Shown: one piece after another, positions 5,388-13,018 of the stretch
Numbering within the stretch: the first letter of the stretch is position 1
How the letters are laid out: each line of letters opens with the position of its first letter
Source: Pseudoclavibacter sp. RFBB5
GTDB taxonomy: Bacteria > Actinomycetota > Actinomycetes > Actinomycetales > Microbacteriaceae
Direction of reading: 5' to 3'
Length of the DNA: 64,000 nt
NCBI RefSeq assembly: GCF_002931555.1
Contig: NZ_PSTZ01000007.1
Location: forward strand, 186,001 to 250,000
Position numbers and translations under genes: made by a program
The notes under the pieces: generated by a model
Seen by the model: only the letters and a program-made list of their open reading frames with translations
Told to the model about the DNA's origin: nothing
Database searches by the model: none

Positions 5388-6146
5388 TCACCGGTAGTAG
5401 ACGGCGAGCGGGTAGTCGCCGTCGTGGCGCACCTCGATCGGGGTGCCGAAGACGTGCTCGAGGGTCTCGGTCGTCATGAGGTCCTTCGGGCTGCCGGAGT
5501 GCGCGAGCTGCCCGTCGGTGAGGGCGATGATGTTGTCGGCGTAGGCGGCGGCGAAGTTGATGTCGTGGATGACGATCACGAACGTCTTGCCGAGTTCGTC
5601 CGCGGCTCGGCGAAGCTGGCCCATCATGGCGACGGCGTGCTTCATGTCGAGGTTGTTGAGGGGCTCGTCGAGGAGGATGTAGTCCGTGTCCTGCGCGAGC
5701 ACCATGGCGACGTAGGCCCGCTGCCGCTGCCCGCCGGAGAGCTGGTCGAGGTAGCGGTGCTCGAGGGTCGTGAGGTCGAGGAACTCGATGGCCCGGTCGA
5801 TGTGCTGCTTGTCGGCTGGCGTGAGCCGCCCCTGCGAGTGGGGGAAGCGGCCGAAGCCGACGAGCTCCCGCACCGTGAGGCGGGTGACGAAGTGGTTCTC
5901 CTGCCGGAGGATGGAGACGACCTTCGCGAGGTCGCGGCTCTTCGCCTTCGTCACATCGTGGCCGCCGACGGTGACCGTGCCGGTGCTCGCATCCGTCAGC
6001 CTGCCGACGATCGTCAGCAGCGTCGATTTGCCGGCGCCGTTCGGGCCGACGAGGGCCGTGATGCCGCCTGCGGGGATGTCGAGGGTCACGGGCCCGAGCA
6101 CGGTCGCCTTGCCGTAGGTCTTGGTGACGTTCGAGAGCGAGATCAC
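5388..6146 (-). CDS. siderophore ABC transporter ATPase (YclP/CeuD-like)
   Basis: This ATPase of the upstream importer has 252 residues. Motifs are Walker A GPNGAGKST, Q-loop ILRQENH, signature LSGGQRQR, Walker B YILLDEPLNNLD and H-loop IVIHDINF. Several stretches (LVGFGRFPHSQGRLT, EPLNNLDMKH) resemble the Bacillus YclP and Campylobacter CeuD type rather than FepC, pointing to catecholate or petrobactin-class siderophores. That substrate class is inference from recalled family sequence. The GTG start at 6146 overlaps the permease stop by four bases; the longer upstream frame is a shadow. Confidence 0.92.
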   Translation of the reverse strand: MISLSNVTKTYGKATVLGPVTLDIPAGGITALVGPNGAGKSTLLTIVGRLTDASTGTVTVGGHDVTKAKSRDLAKVVSILRQENHFVTRLTVRELVGFGRFPHSQGRLTPADKQHIDRAIEFLDLTTLEHRYLDQLSGGQRQRAYVAMVLAQDTDYILLDEPLNNLDMKHAVAMMGQLRRAADELGKTFVIVIHDINFAAAYADNIIALTDGQLAHSGSPKDLMTTETLEHVFGTPIEVRHDGDYPLAVYYR

Positions 6147-7192
6147 AGGGCGCCCTTCCTGAGTAGGTACACGATGAAGAAGAGGCCGCCGACGAACTCG
6201 ATGATGATCGAGAGGGTGCCGGCCGCGTAGAACACGTGGCGGAGCACGAAGTAGCCGCCGAGCAGGGTGAGCATGCCGAGGAGCATCGCGAACGGGATGA
6301 CGTGCTTGTGCTGCGAGGACCCGGTCAGCTGGTAGGCGAGGGTCGCGACGATGAACCCGAAGAACGTCATGGGGCCGACGAGGGTCGTCGAGATGGAGAT
6401 GAGCACGGCCGTCAGGATGAGGAGCACCGTGACCTTGCGCTTGTAGGCGACGCCGAGGTTGACGGCGGTGTCGCGGCCGAGGGCGAGCACGTCGAGGGTG
6501 TTCCTGGTGCGCCAGATGAAGGCGAGCACGACCGCGATGATGAGCGCGGCCCACGGCAGGTACTCGGGGTTCGAGTTGCTGAGGTTGCCGAAGAGCTTCG
6601 CCGAGAGCACGTCGAACTCGCTCGGCGTGAGGAGGCGCTGCATGAAGGTCGAGAGCGAGCCGAAGCCCACGCCGAAGACGACGCCGATGAGCAGCATGAT
6701 GTGCAGGTTGCCGCGCTTGCCGGAGAAGAGCCACGTGTAGAGCACGGTCGCGAAGCCCACCATGAGGAAGCTCTGCAGGAACACCTTGGGGAGGCCGTCG
6801 GTCGAGGCGAGGGCCGCGCCGCCGAGGAAGAACACGAGGGCGGTCTGGAAGACGACGTAGATGGCGTCGAACCCCATGATCGATGGGGTCAGGATGCGGT
6901 TGCCGGTCGCCGTGTGGAAGAGCACCGTGGCGACGGCCTGGCAGGCGGCGACGATGATGACGGTCGCGACCGTGACGACCCGCAGGTTGACGGCGAGCCA
7001 GAAGCCGCGACTGCCGGGCTCCATGGCGATGTCGTAGGTGAGCACGCCGACGGCCGAGAGGACGACGAGGGCGCCGAGGATGCTGAAGCGCAGCCAGAGG
7101 CGGGGCGGCTTGGCGGGCTTGGACGCGTCGCTGACCTTGTCGCCGACGCGGCGGGCCGTGGATCTCGGGAGGCGGGGCACGGTGTCAGCCAT
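6143..7192 (-). CDS. siderophore ABC transporter permease (FecCD family, YclO-like)
   Basis: This is the second permease of the upstream importer, 349 residues. A basic cytoplasmic N-terminus precedes a first membrane span (LRFSILGALVVLSAVGVL). Family features include ATGNRILTPSIMGFD and LVGPMTFFGFIVA. The YclO-like assignment follows its position directly before a YclP-like ATPase gene and its divergence from the FepG-like copy. The ATG at 7192 overlaps the preceding permease gene by eight bases. Confidence 0.91.
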   Translation of the reverse strand: MADTVPRLPRSTARRVGDKVSDASKPAKPPRLWLRFSILGALVVLSAVGVLTYDIAMEPGSRGFWLAVNLRVVTVATVIIVAACQAVATVLFHTATGNRILTPSIMGFDAIYVVFQTALVFFLGGAALASTDGLPKVFLQSFLMVGFATVLYTWLFSGKRGNLHIMLLIGVVFGVGFGSLSTFMQRLLTPSEFDVLSAKLFGNLSNSNPEYLPWAALIIAVVLAFIWRTRNTLDVLALGRDTAVNLGVAYKRKVTVLLILTAVLISISTTLVGPMTFFGFIVATLAYQLTGSSQHKHVIPFAMLLGMLTLLGGYFVLRHVFYAAGTLSIIIEFVGGLFFIVYLLRKGAL

Positions 7193-8198
7193 CGCGCCGC
7201 ATCCGGAGCAGGAGGGTGATGAAGACGGCGGCGCCGACCATGCCGAGGATCATCGAGACGGGCAGCTCGAAGGGCATGCGGATGACGCGGCCGATGATGT
7301 CGCAGACGATGATGATGCCCACGCCGAGCACGCACACCCATGGCAGGTTCGACCTGAGGTTGTCGCCGCGGGCCATGGAGACGAGGTTCGGCACGATGAG
7401 CCCGAGGAACGGCAGGAAGCCGACGACGACGGTCGTGACGCCGGTCGCGATGGCGACGAGCGCGGTGCCGATGAACATCACGAGGTTGTAGTTGACGCCG
7501 AAGTTCGTGGCGATGTCCTTGCCGAGGCCGGCGACGGTGAAGCGGTCGGCGACGAAGTAGGCGATGACGACGATGATGGCGACGATCCACAGCACCTCGT
7601 AGCGGCCGCGCACGACGCTCGTGAAGCTGCCCATGAACCAGGTGCCCAGCATCTGCAGGTAGTTCGTCTCGATCGCGAGCCACGTCGTGAAGGCCGAGAC
7701 GACGGCGCCGAGCATGATGCCGATCAGCGGCACGATGAGGGCCGAGCGCAGCGCGACGCGGCGCAGCACGGCGAGGAAGACCATAGTGCCGATGAAGGCG
7801 GAGGCGCTGGCCATGACCATGCGGGTCGTGAGGCCGGCGGTGGGCACGACGATGTAGCTGACGAGCAGGCCGAGGGCGGACCACTCGGTGGTGCCCGTCG
7901 TCGTGGGCTCGACGAAGCGGTTCTGGGTGAGCAGCTGCAGGATGAGCCCCGAGACGCTCATGGCGCATCCGGCCAGCACGAGGGAGACGGTGCGGGGGAC
8001 GCGGGAGATCCAGATCATCTCGCCGCCGAACTCGTTCCCCGCGATGTCGTAGGCGCCGACGAAGAGGGAGAGGACGGCGAGGCAGAGCACCACGGCGATG
8101 CCCACCGGGAGGGCGCCTCGGCGGTTGAGGAGCGGCACGCGGTGCGCGGGGGTGATCCGCGGCGCCGATGCGGCCGGGGGTGGGGCTGTTGCTGTCAT
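7185..8198 (-). CDS. siderophore ABC transporter permease (FecCD family, YclN-like)
   Basis: This is the first permease of the upstream importer, about 337 residues from the ATG at 8198. FecCD patterns are QLLTQNRFVEPTTTG and FLPFLGLIVPNLV. An in-frame start at 8312 would add a non-hydrophobic Ser/Arg-rich leader and is rejected, since the membrane-protein N-terminus at 8198 looks normal. It pairs with the next permease. A 130-base gap separates it from the binding-protein gene upstream, the largest gap within this transport set. Confidence 0.9.
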   Translation of the reverse strand: MTATAPPPAASAPRITPAHRVPLLNRRGALPVGIAVVLCLAVLSLFVGAYDIAGNEFGGEMIWISRVPRTVSLVLAGCAMSVSGLILQLLTQNRFVEPTTTGTTEWSALGLLVSYIVVPTAGLTTRMVMASASAFIGTMVFLAVLRRVALRSALIVPLIGIMLGAVVSAFTTWLAIETNYLQMLGTWFMGSFTSVVRGRYEVLWIVAIIVVIAYFVADRFTVAGLGKDIATNFGVNYNLVMFIGTALVAIATGVTTVVVGFLPFLGLIVPNLVSMARGDNLRSNLPWVCVLGVGIIIVCDIIGRVIRMPFELPVSMILGMVGAAVFITLLLRMRRDG

Positions 8199-8328
8199 TC
8201 GCTCGCTGTCATGGGCTGGCGGGCTGGGTGCTGTGCTGCGTCTGCTGCGCGTCTGCTGCGCTGTGCCCCGCTGCCCGGACGACGTGGGGGCGCCTTCCGA
8301 GCGGCGGGGCACAGCGCGGGTGCGCTGC

Positions 8329-9345
8329 CTAGCTGTTGGCTCCGGCGAACGCGGCAGCGACGTCGGCGTACAGGCCGGTGTAGGCCTGGATGCCCTCGTC
8401 GAGGTAGAACGTCGGGTCGAGGTAGACGATCTGGTTCTTCTGCACGGCTGGCACGTTCTGGAGTGCCTCGGCGCCCGCGATGAGGTCGGCAGCTGCGGTT
8501 GCGCCCTCTTCGCCGGTGCCGGCGTCGCGGTCGAGCACGATCATCCACTCGGGGTTGGCCTGCGCGATGGCCTCGACGCTGATGTCGTCGCCGTGGGAGG
8601 CGTCTTCAGCGGTCTGGTCGATGGCCGGGGTGAGGCCGATCGTGGGGAAGAGCTGGCCGACGCCGCGGCCCTCACCCGGTGCCGCGTAGGCGATCTCGCC
8701 GCCGGAGGTGATGAGCCCGACAACCGAGTCGGTGCCGTTGTAGGCGCTCTTCGCGTCGGCGATGGCCGTGTCGAAGGCGGCGATCGTCTCTGCGGCCTCT
8801 TCTTCCTTGTCGAAGATCTGGCCGAGGATCTCAACCTGGCGCTTCAGCTCACTCGTCGCCTCTTCGCCGTCGCGGGCGTTGATCTCGATGGTGGTGGGCT
8901 GGATCGCCTTGAGGTCCGCGTAGTAGTCCTGGAAGCGGTAGCCGCCGATGATGAGGTCGGGGTCGGCCTCGATGACGGCCTCGAGGTCGGGCTCGCGGTG
9001 GAGGCCGACGTCGAGCACCTCGTCGCCACCGGCGAGGTCCGGCCAGACGCTCTCCATGAGCGGCTTGGGGGCCGCGACGACGTCGATGCCCCAGTCGCTG
9101 AGGGTCTGGAACGTGGTGTTGTCGAGGGCGACGACGCGCTCCGGGTTCACGGGCACTTCGATCTCGCCGTGGTTGTCGGTGATCGTGACGGTTCCGGACG
9201 CTGCTGCCGCGGCATCCGCATCGGCGGCAGGCGCGGAGTCGGCCGGGGCGCATCCGGCGAGCAGGAGCGCCGAGATGGCGAGGAGGCCGGCTCCCTGGAT
9301 ACGTGCGGCGGTGCGCCGGGTGGGGGCGGTGAGCGTTTTGGGCAT
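8329..9345 (-). CDS. iron-siderophore substrate-binding lipoprotein, first gene of the iron-uptake run
   Basis: This solute-binding lipoprotein of about 338 residues has the lipobox LLLAGC near residue 31. A TroA/FecB-like fold with RVVALDNTTFQTLSDWG and EADPDLIIGG follows. It is the receptor of the upstream (YclNOPQ-like) importer. The ATG at 9345 follows GAGGA; an in-frame start at 9456 would bury the signal peptide. It is the first gene downstream of the iron box at 9500-9518, so it should be the most strongly iron-repressed gene of the run. Confidence 0.91.
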   Translation of the reverse strand: MPKTLTAPTRRTAARIQGAGLLAISALLLAGCAPADSAPAADADAAAAASGTVTITDNHGEIEVPVNPERVVALDNTTFQTLSDWGIDVVAAPKPLMESVWPDLAGGDEVLDVGLHREPDLEAVIEADPDLIIGGYRFQDYYADLKAIQPTTIEINARDGEEATSELKRQVEILGQIFDKEEEAAETIAAFDTAIADAKSAYNGTDSVVGLITSGGEIAYAAPGEGRGVGQLFPTIGLTPAIDQTAEDASHGDDISVEAIAQANPEWMIVLDRDAGTGEEGATAAADLIAGAEALQNVPAVQKNQIVYLDPTFYLDEGIQAYTGLYADVAAAFAGANS

Positions 9346-9499
9346 GGCGGATCCTCGGTTCGGGGATGGGCTGTGTTTCGCGCACAGGTGATGTTTCGGG
9401 CACGGATGTGAAGCCGCTGCAGGGGCCGCACGGGCGCTTCGGAGCGGACGGGCCAAGCCTGCGAATCGTGCTGATCATCCAGCGCGACTCGGCTTCGAG

Positions 9500-9597: not shown

Positions 9598-10800
9598 GTG
9601 ATGCTTTCTCCTCGTCCTTCGATGATCCCCGGTTGGCGTGACCTCACGACGATGGGCCCCTACCGCCGCGATCACTGGGTGGCGCTTCGGGTCGCCTTGG
9701 CGATCGGGGTGCCGCTGGTGCTCCTGTGGGCGACGGGGTCGATGCCGCTCGCGATCTTCGCCGTCTTCGGAGCGTTCACAAGCGTCTACGGTCGTGGGCT
9801 CAGCGTGTTCGGTCGGTTCCGGATGCAGTCGATCGCGGCGGGTTCGCTCCTCGCGTCGGTCGGCGTGGGCGCCGTCATCGCGCTCTCGCCTGGCCGGGCT
9901 CTGCTCGTGCTGCCCGCTGCGGCGATGTGGGCGTTCCTCATGTCGCTCCTCGGCGACCGTGTGCGTTGGGCTCCGCCAGGGCCGATGTTCCAGATCTTCG
10001 CGCTGGCCGGCATCGCGGCGCTCGCGGCGGGTGGTGAGGTGCTGCTGGTCGGCATCGGCGTCGCGGTCGTGACGGCGGCATGGTCGCTGCTGCTCGGGCT
10101 CGCGTTCGGCGCTGTCGGTGCCGTCGTGGATCGGGCGCGTGCGCGCACCGGGGCAGCCGCGACGTCGCAGCCGTCGAGTGCCGCTGCCGCTGGGACCGCC
10201 GCCGCTGCCGCTGGGGCCGATCCGGCACGCGCTGGGGCCGCGGGTGCTGGTGCCGACGAGGCACGTTCGGGTCTGGCGCCGGTGACGGGGTCGATTCGGT
10301 CGGTCCGCCCGGCGCGTTCGTCGGCGATCGGTCGGGCGACGATGTTCGCGGTCGGCACCCTCATCGCCGGTGCCATCCCGTTGCTGATCGGCATCGGGCA
10401 TCCGTACTGGGCGATGGTGTCTGCGATCGCGGGTCTGTCTGCGGCGACGGGGTTCCATCGGGTGCTGCGGGCGACGCATCGACTTGTGGGCACGGTGCTG
10501 GGTCTTGGCGTGGCAGCGGTGCTGTTGGCGTTCGAGCCGAGCGGCTTGGTCGTGGTGCTGCTGGTGATCGCGCTGCAGGGTGGGGTGGAGCTGTTCATCG
10601 TGCGCAACTACACGATCGGGTTGCTGTTCCTGACCCCGCTGGTGCTGGTGATGGGCCGCCTGGCGGGTGACGTCTCTGCGGGCCAGCTGCTGCTGGAGCG
10701 CGGCGTCGAGACGGCCATCGGCGTGGCGGTCGCGATCGGCATCGCGGTGCTGCTCGAGTGGAGGCCCAGATGGCAGTCGCCTGCCTCTTCCAAGGTATAG
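9598..10800 (+). CDS. FUSC-family membrane protein, possible aromatic-compound exporter
   Basis: This is a 400-residue integral membrane protein. Two blocks of hydrophobic helices flank a low-complexity Ala/Gly linker at roughly residues 180-220. The repeated-half architecture (GAFTSVYGRG in the first half, GHPYWAMVSAIAGLSA in the second) is that of FUSC/aromatic acid exporter proteins. Some relatives export aromatic acids or siderophore-like phenolics, but the substrate here is unknown. GTG at 9598 and ATG at 9601 are equally possible starts and no strong ribosome site was seen. It diverges from the siderophore genes across the iron box, which makes a siderophore-export role conceivable. Confidence 0.78.
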   Translation: MMLSPRPSMIPGWRDLTTMGPYRRDHWVALRVALAIGVPLVLLWATGSMPLAIFAVFGAFTSVYGRGLSVFGRFRMQSIAAGSLLASVGVGAVIALSPGRALLVLPAAAMWAFLMSLLGDRVRWAPPGPMFQIFALAGIAALAAGGEVLLVGIGVAVVTAAWSLLLGLAFGAVGAVVDRARARTGAAATSQPSSAAAAGTAAAAAGADPARAGAAGAGADEARSGLAPVTGSIRSVRPARSSAIGRATMFAVGTLIAGAIPLLIGIGHPYWAMVSAIAGLSAATGFHRVLRATHRLVGTVLGLGVAAVLLAFEPSGLVVVLLVIALQGGVELFIVRNYTIGLLFLTPLVLVMGRLAGDVSAGQLLLERGVETAIGVAVAIGIAVLLEWRPRWQSPASSKV

Positions 10801-10807
10801 ATCACCA

Positions 10808-10829
10808 GGGGGCTTGCCGCAAGACCCCG
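10808..10829 (+). promoter_or_regulatory. rifamycin-associated-element-like palindrome before helR
   Basis: A near-perfect inverted repeat, GGGGCTTGC/GCAAG-CCCC in type, lies 24 bases before the GTG of the HelR gene. It matches, as I recall it, the about 19-base rifamycin-associated element that precedes rifamycin-resistance genes in actinobacteria. TTGCCG within it (10814-10819) could serve as a -35 and CAGAAT (10839-10844) as a -10. Transcription would then start at about 10851-10853, giving a leaderless mRNA. Confidence 0.7.
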
Positions 10830-10852
10830 TCGAGGCACCAGAATGAGCGATC

Positions 10853-13018
10853 GTGACATCTCCTGTTGAAGTCTTTGCCCTGCCGCCGCACCTGTCGTTC
10901 AAGTCGGACCCCGAACTCGTCGGCGAGGATGCCAGCCAGTTCGCGGCGATCGCTGGGGCCCTGTCGCGCCAGAAGCGTGAGCTGGCGTCGCGGCTCGACG
11001 AGCTTCGGCTCACCGATGGAGGGGCGGGGCAGCAGGCGCTCGACCGCGATACGGAGATCCACCGCCTGTCGCGGCAGCTTCGCGGGCTCGAGCGGTTCGG
11101 GGTGGACGCGTGCCTTGGGCGTATGACGCCGGCGGACGGGTCTCCGGATGTCTACGTGGGGCGCTTCGGGCTCGCGGATGAGGACGGGCGGCGCCTCCTG
11201 ATCGACTGGCGGGTGCCGGCGGCTGAGCCGTTCTTCGCGGCGACGCACGCGAATCCGCTTGGCCTGGCGAGTCGGCGGCGGTACCGGTGGAACGTGGAGC
11301 GGGTCGTCGACTACTGGGACGAGGTGTTCGTGCCCGAGGAGATGGCGGGGCGGGTGGCGCTCGACGACCAGTCTTCGTTCATCGCGAGCCTCGGCTCCGC
11401 GCGGTCTGGCGAGATGCGGGATGTGCTCGGCACGATCCAGGCCGATCAGGATGCGATCATCCGGGCGGGTTCGCGCGGTGCCCTGGTCGTGGATGGCGGG
11501 CCGGGAACCGGCAAGACGGTGGTCGCCCTGCACCGCACGGCGTTCCTGCTCTACTCCGACCCGCGCTTCAAGCAGGGCCGCGGCGGGGTGCTCTTCGTGG
11601 GGCCGAGCCGCCCCTACCTGAACTACGTGGCGAACGTGCTGCCGAGCCTCGGGGAGGACAGCGTGCAGCTGTGCACGCTGCGCGACCTGCTGCCCGAGGG
11701 GGCGGATGCGCGTGACGAGGCCGACGCATCCGTCGCCCGCCTGAAGTCGTCGCTCGATCTGGTGCGCGCCGTGGGCAAGGCGGTGCGCTACCACCAGCGT
11801 CCGCCACGTGCACCGTTCACGGTGACGACGACGGACTCGCAGGAGCTGACGCTCGACGCGGCCGACTGGGCGGAGGCGTTCGTGGCCTACGAGCCTGGGC
11901 TCACCCACAACGAGGCTCGAGAGCAGGTGTGGGAGGAGGTGCTGCGACTGCTCGTCGACAAGCGCTCGCCGAGCGCGTCGGAGCACTCGGTGCGGGCGAC
12001 GCTCCTGCGCGACGAGCGGCTGCGGGTTGCGTTCGCGAAGGCGTGGCCGCTGCTCGATCCGGCCTCGGTGATCGCCGATCTGTGGTCGGTGCCGGCGTAC
12101 CTGCAGTGGTGCGCTCCCGAGCTGGGTGCCGATGAGGTGCGTCGGCTGCAGCGCCCGGATGCTCGTGCTTGGACTGTCTCGGACCTCCCGCTCATCGACG
12201 TGGCGAGGCGCCTCACGGGCGACCCGAACGAGTTCCGGCAGCGGGCGCGACGGGCTGAGGCGCTGGCGTCGCAGCAGGAGAACATGTCGCACGTTGTCGA
12301 CAACCTCATCGAGGGCGATGACGACGGGGAGGGGCTGGTCACGATGCTGCGGGTCGAGGATGCGCAGCAGTCGCTCATCGACGAGGATTCCCTGCCGCCC
12401 GTCGACTTCGACGAGCTCGCGGGGCCGTTCGCGCACGTGGTGATCGACGAGGCGCAGGAGCTGACGGATGCGGAGTGGGCGATGCTGCTGGCGAGGTGCC
12501 CGTCGAGGAGTTTCACGATCGTCGGCGACCGGGCGCAGGCGCGTCACGGGTTCCGAGAGACCTGGGAGGAGCGTCTGGCGCGCGTCGGTCTGCCGAAGGT
12601 CGAGGTCGCCCAGCTGACGATCAACTACCGCACGCCGGAGGAGGTCATGCTCGAGGCCGCACCCGTCATCCTCGAGGCCCTTCCCGACGCGAACGTGCCG
12701 GTGTCGGTGCGCAGCAGCGGTCTCCCGGTCGTGTACGGCGGTGTCGCTGAGCTGCAGGGCGTGCTGGACGCGTGGCTCGACGAGCACCTCGACGGGATCA
12801 CGTGCGTCATCACCGCGGTGGGCAGCGACCGGTCCCTCGCCTACGACAACCGCGGGCGCGGGCGCTCGCTCACTCCGGAGACCGCGAAGGGTCTCGAGTT
12901 CGATCTCGTGGTGCTCATCGACCCTGACCGCTTCGGAACAGGCATCGAGGGTGCCGTCGACCGCTACGTCGCGATGACGAGGGCGACGCAGCAGCTGGTG
13001 GTGCTGACCACGGAATGA
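10853..13018 (+). CDS. helR: HelR/HelD-type RNA polymerase recycling ATPase
   Basis: This UvrD/Rep-like ATPase of 721 residues belongs to the HelD/HelR class. These proteins insert arms into RNA polymerase, free stalled enzyme and, for HelR, displace rifamycins. Walker A (GGPGTGKT) is at about residues 215-222 and motif II is VVIDEAQELTDAEW. The late helicase motifs TINYRTPEEV, AKGLEFDLVV and VAMTRATQQLVVL are present. An N-terminal coiled-coil-like region (about residues 25-80) fits the secondary-channel arm. Length is normal for HelR. The GTG start is very close to a putative promoter, and the RAE-like palindrome favours HelR over ordinary HelD. Confidence 0.85.
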   Translation: MTSPVEVFALPPHLSFKSDPELVGEDASQFAAIAGALSRQKRELASRLDELRLTDGGAGQQALDRDTEIHRLSRQLRGLERFGVDACLGRMTPADGSPDVYVGRFGLADEDGRRLLIDWRVPAAEPFFAATHANPLGLASRRRYRWNVERVVDYWDEVFVPEEMAGRVALDDQSSFIASLGSARSGEMRDVLGTIQADQDAIIRAGSRGALVVDGGPGTGKTVVALHRTAFLLYSDPRFKQGRGGVLFVGPSRPYLNYVANVLPSLGEDSVQLCTLRDLLPEGADARDEADASVARLKSSLDLVRAVGKAVRYHQRPPRAPFTVTTTDSQELTLDAADWAEAFVAYEPGLTHNEAREQVWEEVLRLLVDKRSPSASEHSVRATLLRDERLRVAFAKAWPLLDPASVIADLWSVPAYLQWCAPELGADEVRRLQRPDARAWTVSDLPLIDVARRLTGDPNEFRQRARRAEALASQQENMSHVVDNLIEGDDDGEGLVTMLRVEDAQQSLIDEDSLPPVDFDELAGPFAHVVIDEAQELTDAEWAMLLARCPSRSFTIVGDRAQARHGFRETWEERLARVGLPKVEVAQLTINYRTPEEVMLEAAPVILEALPDANVPVSVRSSGLPVVYGGVAELQGVLDAWLDEHLDGITCVITAVGSDRSLAYDNRGRGRSLTPETAKGLEFDLVVLIDPDRFGTGIEGAVDRYVAMTRATQQLVVLTTE

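Follow-up and report, generated by a model that had tools for sequence, protein, structure and literature searches.

A predicted mirror-image antisense promoter at the rifamycin-associated element upstream of helR in Pseudoclavibacter sp. RFBB5

In actinobacteria, the rifamycin-associated element (RAE) precedes the genes rox, arr, rgt, rph and helR (Spanogiannopoulos 2014; Surette 2022; Hurst-Hess 2022, as cited in PMC10719064 and PMC8655204). In M. abscessus, the RAE is required for the reported 25 fold induction of helD and overlaps the -35 of promoter 2 (PMC10719064). For the response as a whole, a factor is still assumed, or the mechanism called unsolved, in a 2022 review and in papers from 2026 (PMC10719064, PMC12802891, PMC13001253). 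A different arrangement is found at helD of B. subtilis, where two-promoter rifampicin sensing with the polymerase as the sensor has been proposed and has experimental support (PMC12802891). There, moving the promoters close enough for polymerases to clash abolished induction, and the same work treats the RAE genes as a separate case that is still to be solved (PMC12802891). When one of two divergent promoters fires strongly, the opposite one is repressed (PMC12825309).

The RAE and the predicted helR promoter

The window, by which we mean the whole stretch of 64,000 nucleotides from Pseudoclavibacter sp. RFBB5 that was analysed, carries the following features around its RAE:

9598..10800, plus strand: gene for a FUSC_2 (fusaric-acid-resistance-like) membrane protein, the 3' end of which overlaps the antisense promoter region
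10772..10785, minus strand: GGCAG-GCGA-CTGCC, a weak 5-bp hairpin without a T tract where the antisense RNA is predicted to begin; many relatives have an intrinsic-terminator-like hairpin at this place
10792..10797, minus strand: predicted antisense -10, TACCTT, which lies over the last codons of the upstream gene; spacer of 19 bp
10808..10828, no strand: the RAE, GGGGGCTTGC-C-GCAAGACCCC, a palindrome and the shared -35 region of both predicted promoters
10814..10819, plus strand: sense -35-like hexamer TTGCCG, within the RAE core
10817..10822, minus strand: antisense -35-like hexamer TTGCGG, the mirror of the sense -35
10839..10844, plus strand: predicted sense -10, CAGAAT, with a 19-bp spacer and a conserved NAnnnT offset
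10853..13018, plus strand: helR, GTG start, 721 aa, RNA polymerase recycling/rifamycin-protection ATPase (NF041254)

Against NF041254 the helR product scores 1112 bits (cut-off 750), which makes it a true HelR (class II HelD), and it resembles HelD of M. smegmatis (6yxu; E 5.8e-94). The gene thus encodes the HelR that the initial annotation had named; by family, the protein is rifamycin-protecting and is predicted to free RNA polymerase from rifamycin. The palindrome in front of it, which had been described as RAE-like, is the already known rifamycin-associated element. The sequence at 10808-10828 reads GGGGG-CTTGC-C-GCAAG-A-CCCC, a 21-bp palindrome around C10818 with a single mismatched pair (G10812/A10824), and its 19-bp core GGGnCTTGCnGCAAGnCCC at 10809-10827 is an exact RAE palindrome with no mismatch. 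The match was judged against the described 19-bp palindrome together with identical target gene families.

In the 3.77-Mb genome there is a single exact copy of the 19-bp core and none of its reversed control. No second RAE copy was recognized in the genome, because matches with 2-3 mismatches are about as frequent as those of the reversed control; candidates at that level were rejected. Using position-weight matrices built with the window left out, the window site ranked top of 127,760 positions for the RAE core, for the half upstream of it and for the half downstream of it, each scored separately.

The initial annotation had also placed the palindrome over a potential -35 and a transcription start at or next to the GTG, and both readings hold. 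TTGCCG lies within the RAE core, an arrangement kept across the family, and there are 8 nt between CAGAAT and the GTG. A transcript should begin 7-8 nt past its -10, so that the expected start site falls at ~10851-10853. As this is at or next to the GTG, the helR transcript is probably leaderless. The RAE centre is 35 bp from the GTG at 10853, and an in-frame RTG is found at exactly +35 in 29 of the 82 helR loci compared. A generic sigma-70 scanner called no promoter at the window site, because it is limited to 18-bp spacers.

Induction of this helR by rifamycin is a fair inference from published work. The association of RAE with helR outside Streptomyces, to which the initial annotation drew attention, is ordinary and not new: such actinobacteria, including two Microbacterium strains, have already been listed (PMC8655204). 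What that first reading missed is a predicted mirrored antisense promoter on the upstream side (10792-10822, minus strand); the element was correctly recognized but incompletely described. Elsewhere in the window, positions 6143-9456 of the minus strand encode an iron-siderophore-type ABC transporter with FecCD-like permeases and an SstD/FhuD-like binding lipoprotein.

Conservation of the mirrored antisense promoter

An exact 19-bp scan of a public genome collection yielded at least 119 RAE loci. The exact core was present in 30 of 396 sampled genomes of the phylum, and the control pattern in one. Clustering of the neighbouring genes without recourse to their names gave five families (HelR, rifampin monooxygenase, rifampin ADP-ribosyltransferase, rifamycin glycosyltransferase and rifamycin phosphotransferase), which are the known RAE targets (PMC10719064, PMC10194278). 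Among the best 30 helR orthologues of the order, chosen by protein alone, 27 start shortly after an RAE or near-RAE; about 24 of these elements are exact, and the others match 13-15 of the 16 specified bases. In Actinoplanes aureus, a gene for a DHA2-family MFS efflux pump (L028:121-1797) stands right behind a complete two-promoter RAE, and a related gene lies near the RAE of locus L084. The former may serve rifamycin efflux, which would place it beyond the five target families usually seen.

Once RAE loci are aligned, conservation extends far beyond 19 bp. We assembled a non-redundant set of 182 RAE promoters (82 helR, 60 rox, 14 arr, 14 rgt and 12 rph), aligned on the RAE and oriented by the downstream gene, not by promoter signals. 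A sense NAnnnT lies at +21..+26 from the RAE centre in 178 of the 182, and an antisense TAnnnT lies at exactly -21..-26 in 176, which is also the offset of TACCTT in the window. At neighbouring offsets, TAnnnT appears in a handful of the 182 promoters at most. With TTGCnG taken as the -35, the spacer is 19 bp for both promoters. The sense -10 begins with C in 148 promoters and with T in five, and positions 1, 2 and 6 of the antisense -10 are kept in 177, 179 and 178, respectively. The invariance of these three antisense positions points to a promoter signature and not to a longer operator or general dyad symmetry. Because its -10 starts with C, the sense promoter is predicted to be weak, whereas the antisense promoter is near consensus. 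Loci with the 19-mer were found via the palindrome, so that 100% conservation of the RAE there is by construction; the flanking -10s were unselected. Also, the upstream half is kept across five unrelated gene families with many different upstream neighbours.

A pattern for the two-promoter unit, composed of the 11-bp core CTTGCnGCAAG and five -10 bases only, matches 184 of 394 sampled genomes of the class, and its reversed control matches none. At 90 of 98 pattern sites, the sense -10 begins with C. Ten further RAE sites near the edges of fetched stretches have both -10s. Among RAE-like 19-mers from unrelated genomes without a target gene, six have neither -10 and two have one. On the sense strand, no conserved TAnnnT was found between -75 and -42 of the aligned RAE loci that could correspond to the upstream promoter (P1) of M. 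smegmatis.

At the level of sequence, the RAE is thus the shared centre of two mirror-image promoters of predicted sigma-70 type, and it has the elements of a bidirectional promoter. From its conservation, we consider the mirrored antisense promoter very probably real and under selection. In the window, its transcript is predicted to start at ~10785 on the minus strand. In Pseudonocardia xinjiangensis (L054, RAE at 2661), the element lies between divergent genes, with rgt on the sense side and, on the antisense side, a HelD/HelR-like gene that the antisense promoter may serve.

On the antisense strand, a hairpin with a T tract occurs in 35% of the set, versus 7% for the sense strand and 3% for shuffles, and a looser hairpin test gave 43% versus 11-13% in controls. 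The stem starts 6 nt past the antisense -10 in 40 of 64 cases. An antisense transcript that begins as a hairpin is predicted for about 40% of loci, common but not universal, and the hairpin is often followed by a terminator-like T tract. Chosen examples are GAGAGCACGTGGTGCTCTC-TTTTTT (L164), GGAGGGTGG...CCCTCC-TTTTTT (L046 and L188) and GGGAGGCGCAGCGCGCCTCC-TTTTTT (Stenotrophomonas L077), whose folds lie below those of shuffles by 4.5 to 4.9 standard deviations. In the window, no antisense terminator was called; the hairpin has a z-score of -0.23, and it falls in a region shared with the 3' end of the upstream gene.

An antisense leader peptide was considered and rejected: the AAGGAG-like stretch is the 5' arm of the terminator-like hairpin, and there is no conserved start codon. 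Two further sequences recur near the unit. An inverted repeat, GTCC..CAC(A/T)GCGGAC, is found at ~-85..-70, upstream of the antisense terminator, in Streptomyces and related RAE loci (for example, L040, L149 and L153). GGCCGAAGCC is conserved at +31..+40, where the leadered transcripts of rox, rgt, rph and some helR begin, and it could form a small 5' hairpin there; it was not seen in leaderless helR.

Candidate explanations of the rifamycin response

We propose that the two promoters form a switch, an explanation about which, taken whole, we are evenly divided. The weak sense promoter, with its C-first -10, would drive helR. The antisense promoter, with T, A and T all in place, would fire towards the upstream gene. 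Many relatives have the intrinsic-terminator-like hairpin directly in its path, which would give a dead-end RNA of ~33 nt. The two promoters would be mutually exclusive, because both need the same DNA, with its one -35, and could not be used together. Without drug, polymerase would be found mostly at the antisense promoter and helR would stay low; such a hold of a strong antisense promoter on a weak sense promoter fits the repression described for divergent promoters (PMC12825309). Rifamycin would shift the balance so that the sense promoter fires. The sequences themselves give the geometry of the two promoters, its conservation, the asymmetry of the -10s and the terminator-like hairpins of a large minority of relatives. 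The activity of the antisense promoter, its hold on helR and an effect of rifamycin on the balance are inferred, and for the last of these, rifamycin acting on the competition between the promoters, we see an even chance. Against the switch, a terminator by strict criteria is missing from most loci and from the window.

Pure polymerase competition was rejected as the whole mechanism: in a steady-state kinetic model with mutually exclusive promoters, induction stayed <1.0 fold whatever the lifetime of the arrested complex. When the arrested antisense polymerase was made non-blocking or helping in the same model, induction ranged from several-fold to ~45 fold, with arbitrary parameters. Since mutual exclusion alone cannot induce, an extra ingredient is needed, which could be an arrested polymerase that helps or a factor that binds the RAE. 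We lean towards the former. The rifamycin-arrested polymerase at the antisense promoter would itself be the sensor, with no dedicated rifamycin-binding regulator, and it would have to stop blocking the sense promoter or help it. That polymerase, and not a separate factor, is the sensor we hold tentatively, at a little less than an even chance. Rather unlikely, in our estimate, is the fullest form of sensing free of a sensor protein, in which the antisense RAE promoter would sample polymerases and the trapped, rifamycin-arrested polymerase would itself switch the resistance promoter on.

An unknown dimeric rifamycin-responsive factor could instead bind the RAE and activate or derepress the sense promoter, with the mirrored promoter as an accessory or as a consequence of a symmetric activator. 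We regard this as possible, if on the doubtful side. It is the view taken by reviews (PMC10719064, PMC12802891), a 19-bp palindrome is operator-like, and simple promoter competition is unable to induce. Moreover, the arms of the palindrome, which are not part of the two-promoter pattern, nevertheless read GGG at 91 and CCC at 75 of the 98 pattern sites; their conservation outside the -35 hexamers suggests that something else reads the palindrome. However, among 101 loci there is no regulator gene that is found repeatedly next to the RAE genes, and a symmetric activator does not account for an antisense -10 that is kept as strictly as the sense -10, is better matched and often precedes a terminator-like hairpin.

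The distribution of the unit also bears on this factor. In front of the arr genes of Stenotrophomonas maltophilia (L073 and L077) and of a Xanthomonadaceae MAG (L092), the RAE is accompanied by both -10s and by an intrinsic terminator on the antisense strand. In these Gammaproteobacteria, the surrounding sequence is strongly divergent and the two-promoter unit is kept, and no linked regulator was seen near it. This argues, without proof, that no actinobacterial factor is needed. The RAE is absent from four other proteobacterial arr genes, those of Burkholderia, Variovorax, Azospirillum and Phyllobacterium, and a DNA search with the Stenotrophomonas unit gave no sign of spread by phages or plasmids.

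The polymerases of the RAE genomes offer a further comparison. The RpoB pocket is of the rifamycin-sensitive type in 24 of the 26 RAE genomes in which it was readable, and the remaining two have Asn at the Ser531-equivalent position, a change linked to rifamycin resistance. Both of these genomes (G050, locus L265; G206, locus L286) keep RAE-rox, which may speak against sensing by the polymerase and for a dimeric factor without deciding between the two, and they provide natural material on whether the polymerase is the sensor. Overall, the conserved arms favour a factor, whereas the missing linked regulator, the presence of the unit in Xanthomonadaceae and the precedent in Bacillus favour the polymerase.

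We consider it improbable that helR has, in line with the initial annotation, no more than a single leaderless promoter with the RAE over its -35. What is conserved upstream would then be a remnant of the neighbouring gene or a further binding site. In favour of this reading, the positions of the sense promoter and of the GTG are conserved, and in M. smegmatis the published promoter 2, on the sense strand, overlaps the RAE likewise (PMC10719064), but the upstream half persists across the five families, with three -10 positions invariant and mirror-exact on the opposite strand. Very improbable is action of the antisense unit through a short hairpin RNA, in cis or in trans, that rifamycin depletes: a hairpin lies at the predicted 5' end in many loci, but the stems vary widely (30 different 6-nt arms), most loci, the window included, have no hairpin by strict criteria, and there is no complementarity to the transcript of the sense promoter.

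Comparison with known systems

Returning to the two-promoter switch that we prefer, its value lies in the single-base, testable predictions that a conserved mirror-image promoter makes for the RAE response, an open question since the element was described. Such a promoter bears on the intrinsic resistance of environmental actinobacteria and mycobacteria to rifamycins, and it links the actinobacterial RAE to the dual-promoter alarm of Bacillus.

The published RAE agrees with the present one in its 19-bp palindrome, its five target families and its overlap with a sense -35. It differs in being described as a 5'-region palindrome over one of two sense promoters only. The RAE literature that we compared makes no mention of a mirrored antisense promoter and terminator.

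In the helD/pps rifampicin alarm of B. subtilis, as predicted for the RAE unit, the sense promoter of a gene that protects against rifamycins is weak and the antisense promoter is stronger (PMC12802891). The Bacillus promoters, however, are convergent, 39 bp apart and non-overlapping, whereas the RAE promoters are divergent, built on one -35 palindrome and predicted to be mutually exclusive. The RAE in the window does not have the convergent, non-overlapping dual promoters of the B. subtilis type. As the Bacillus promoters are convergent and steric overlap abolishes their induction, the RAE would be a different device.

The bidirectional promoters of E. coli resemble the RAE in that pseudo-symmetric DNA binds polymerase either way (PMC12825309 and earlier work cited there). 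They share a -10, whereas the RAE promoters share a -35 and have their -10s 21 bp to either side. Promoters of the MerR type are alike in their 19-bp spacers and in having a palindrome near the core promoter. MerR operators are centred in the spacer, unlike the RAE, which is centred on the -35 region.
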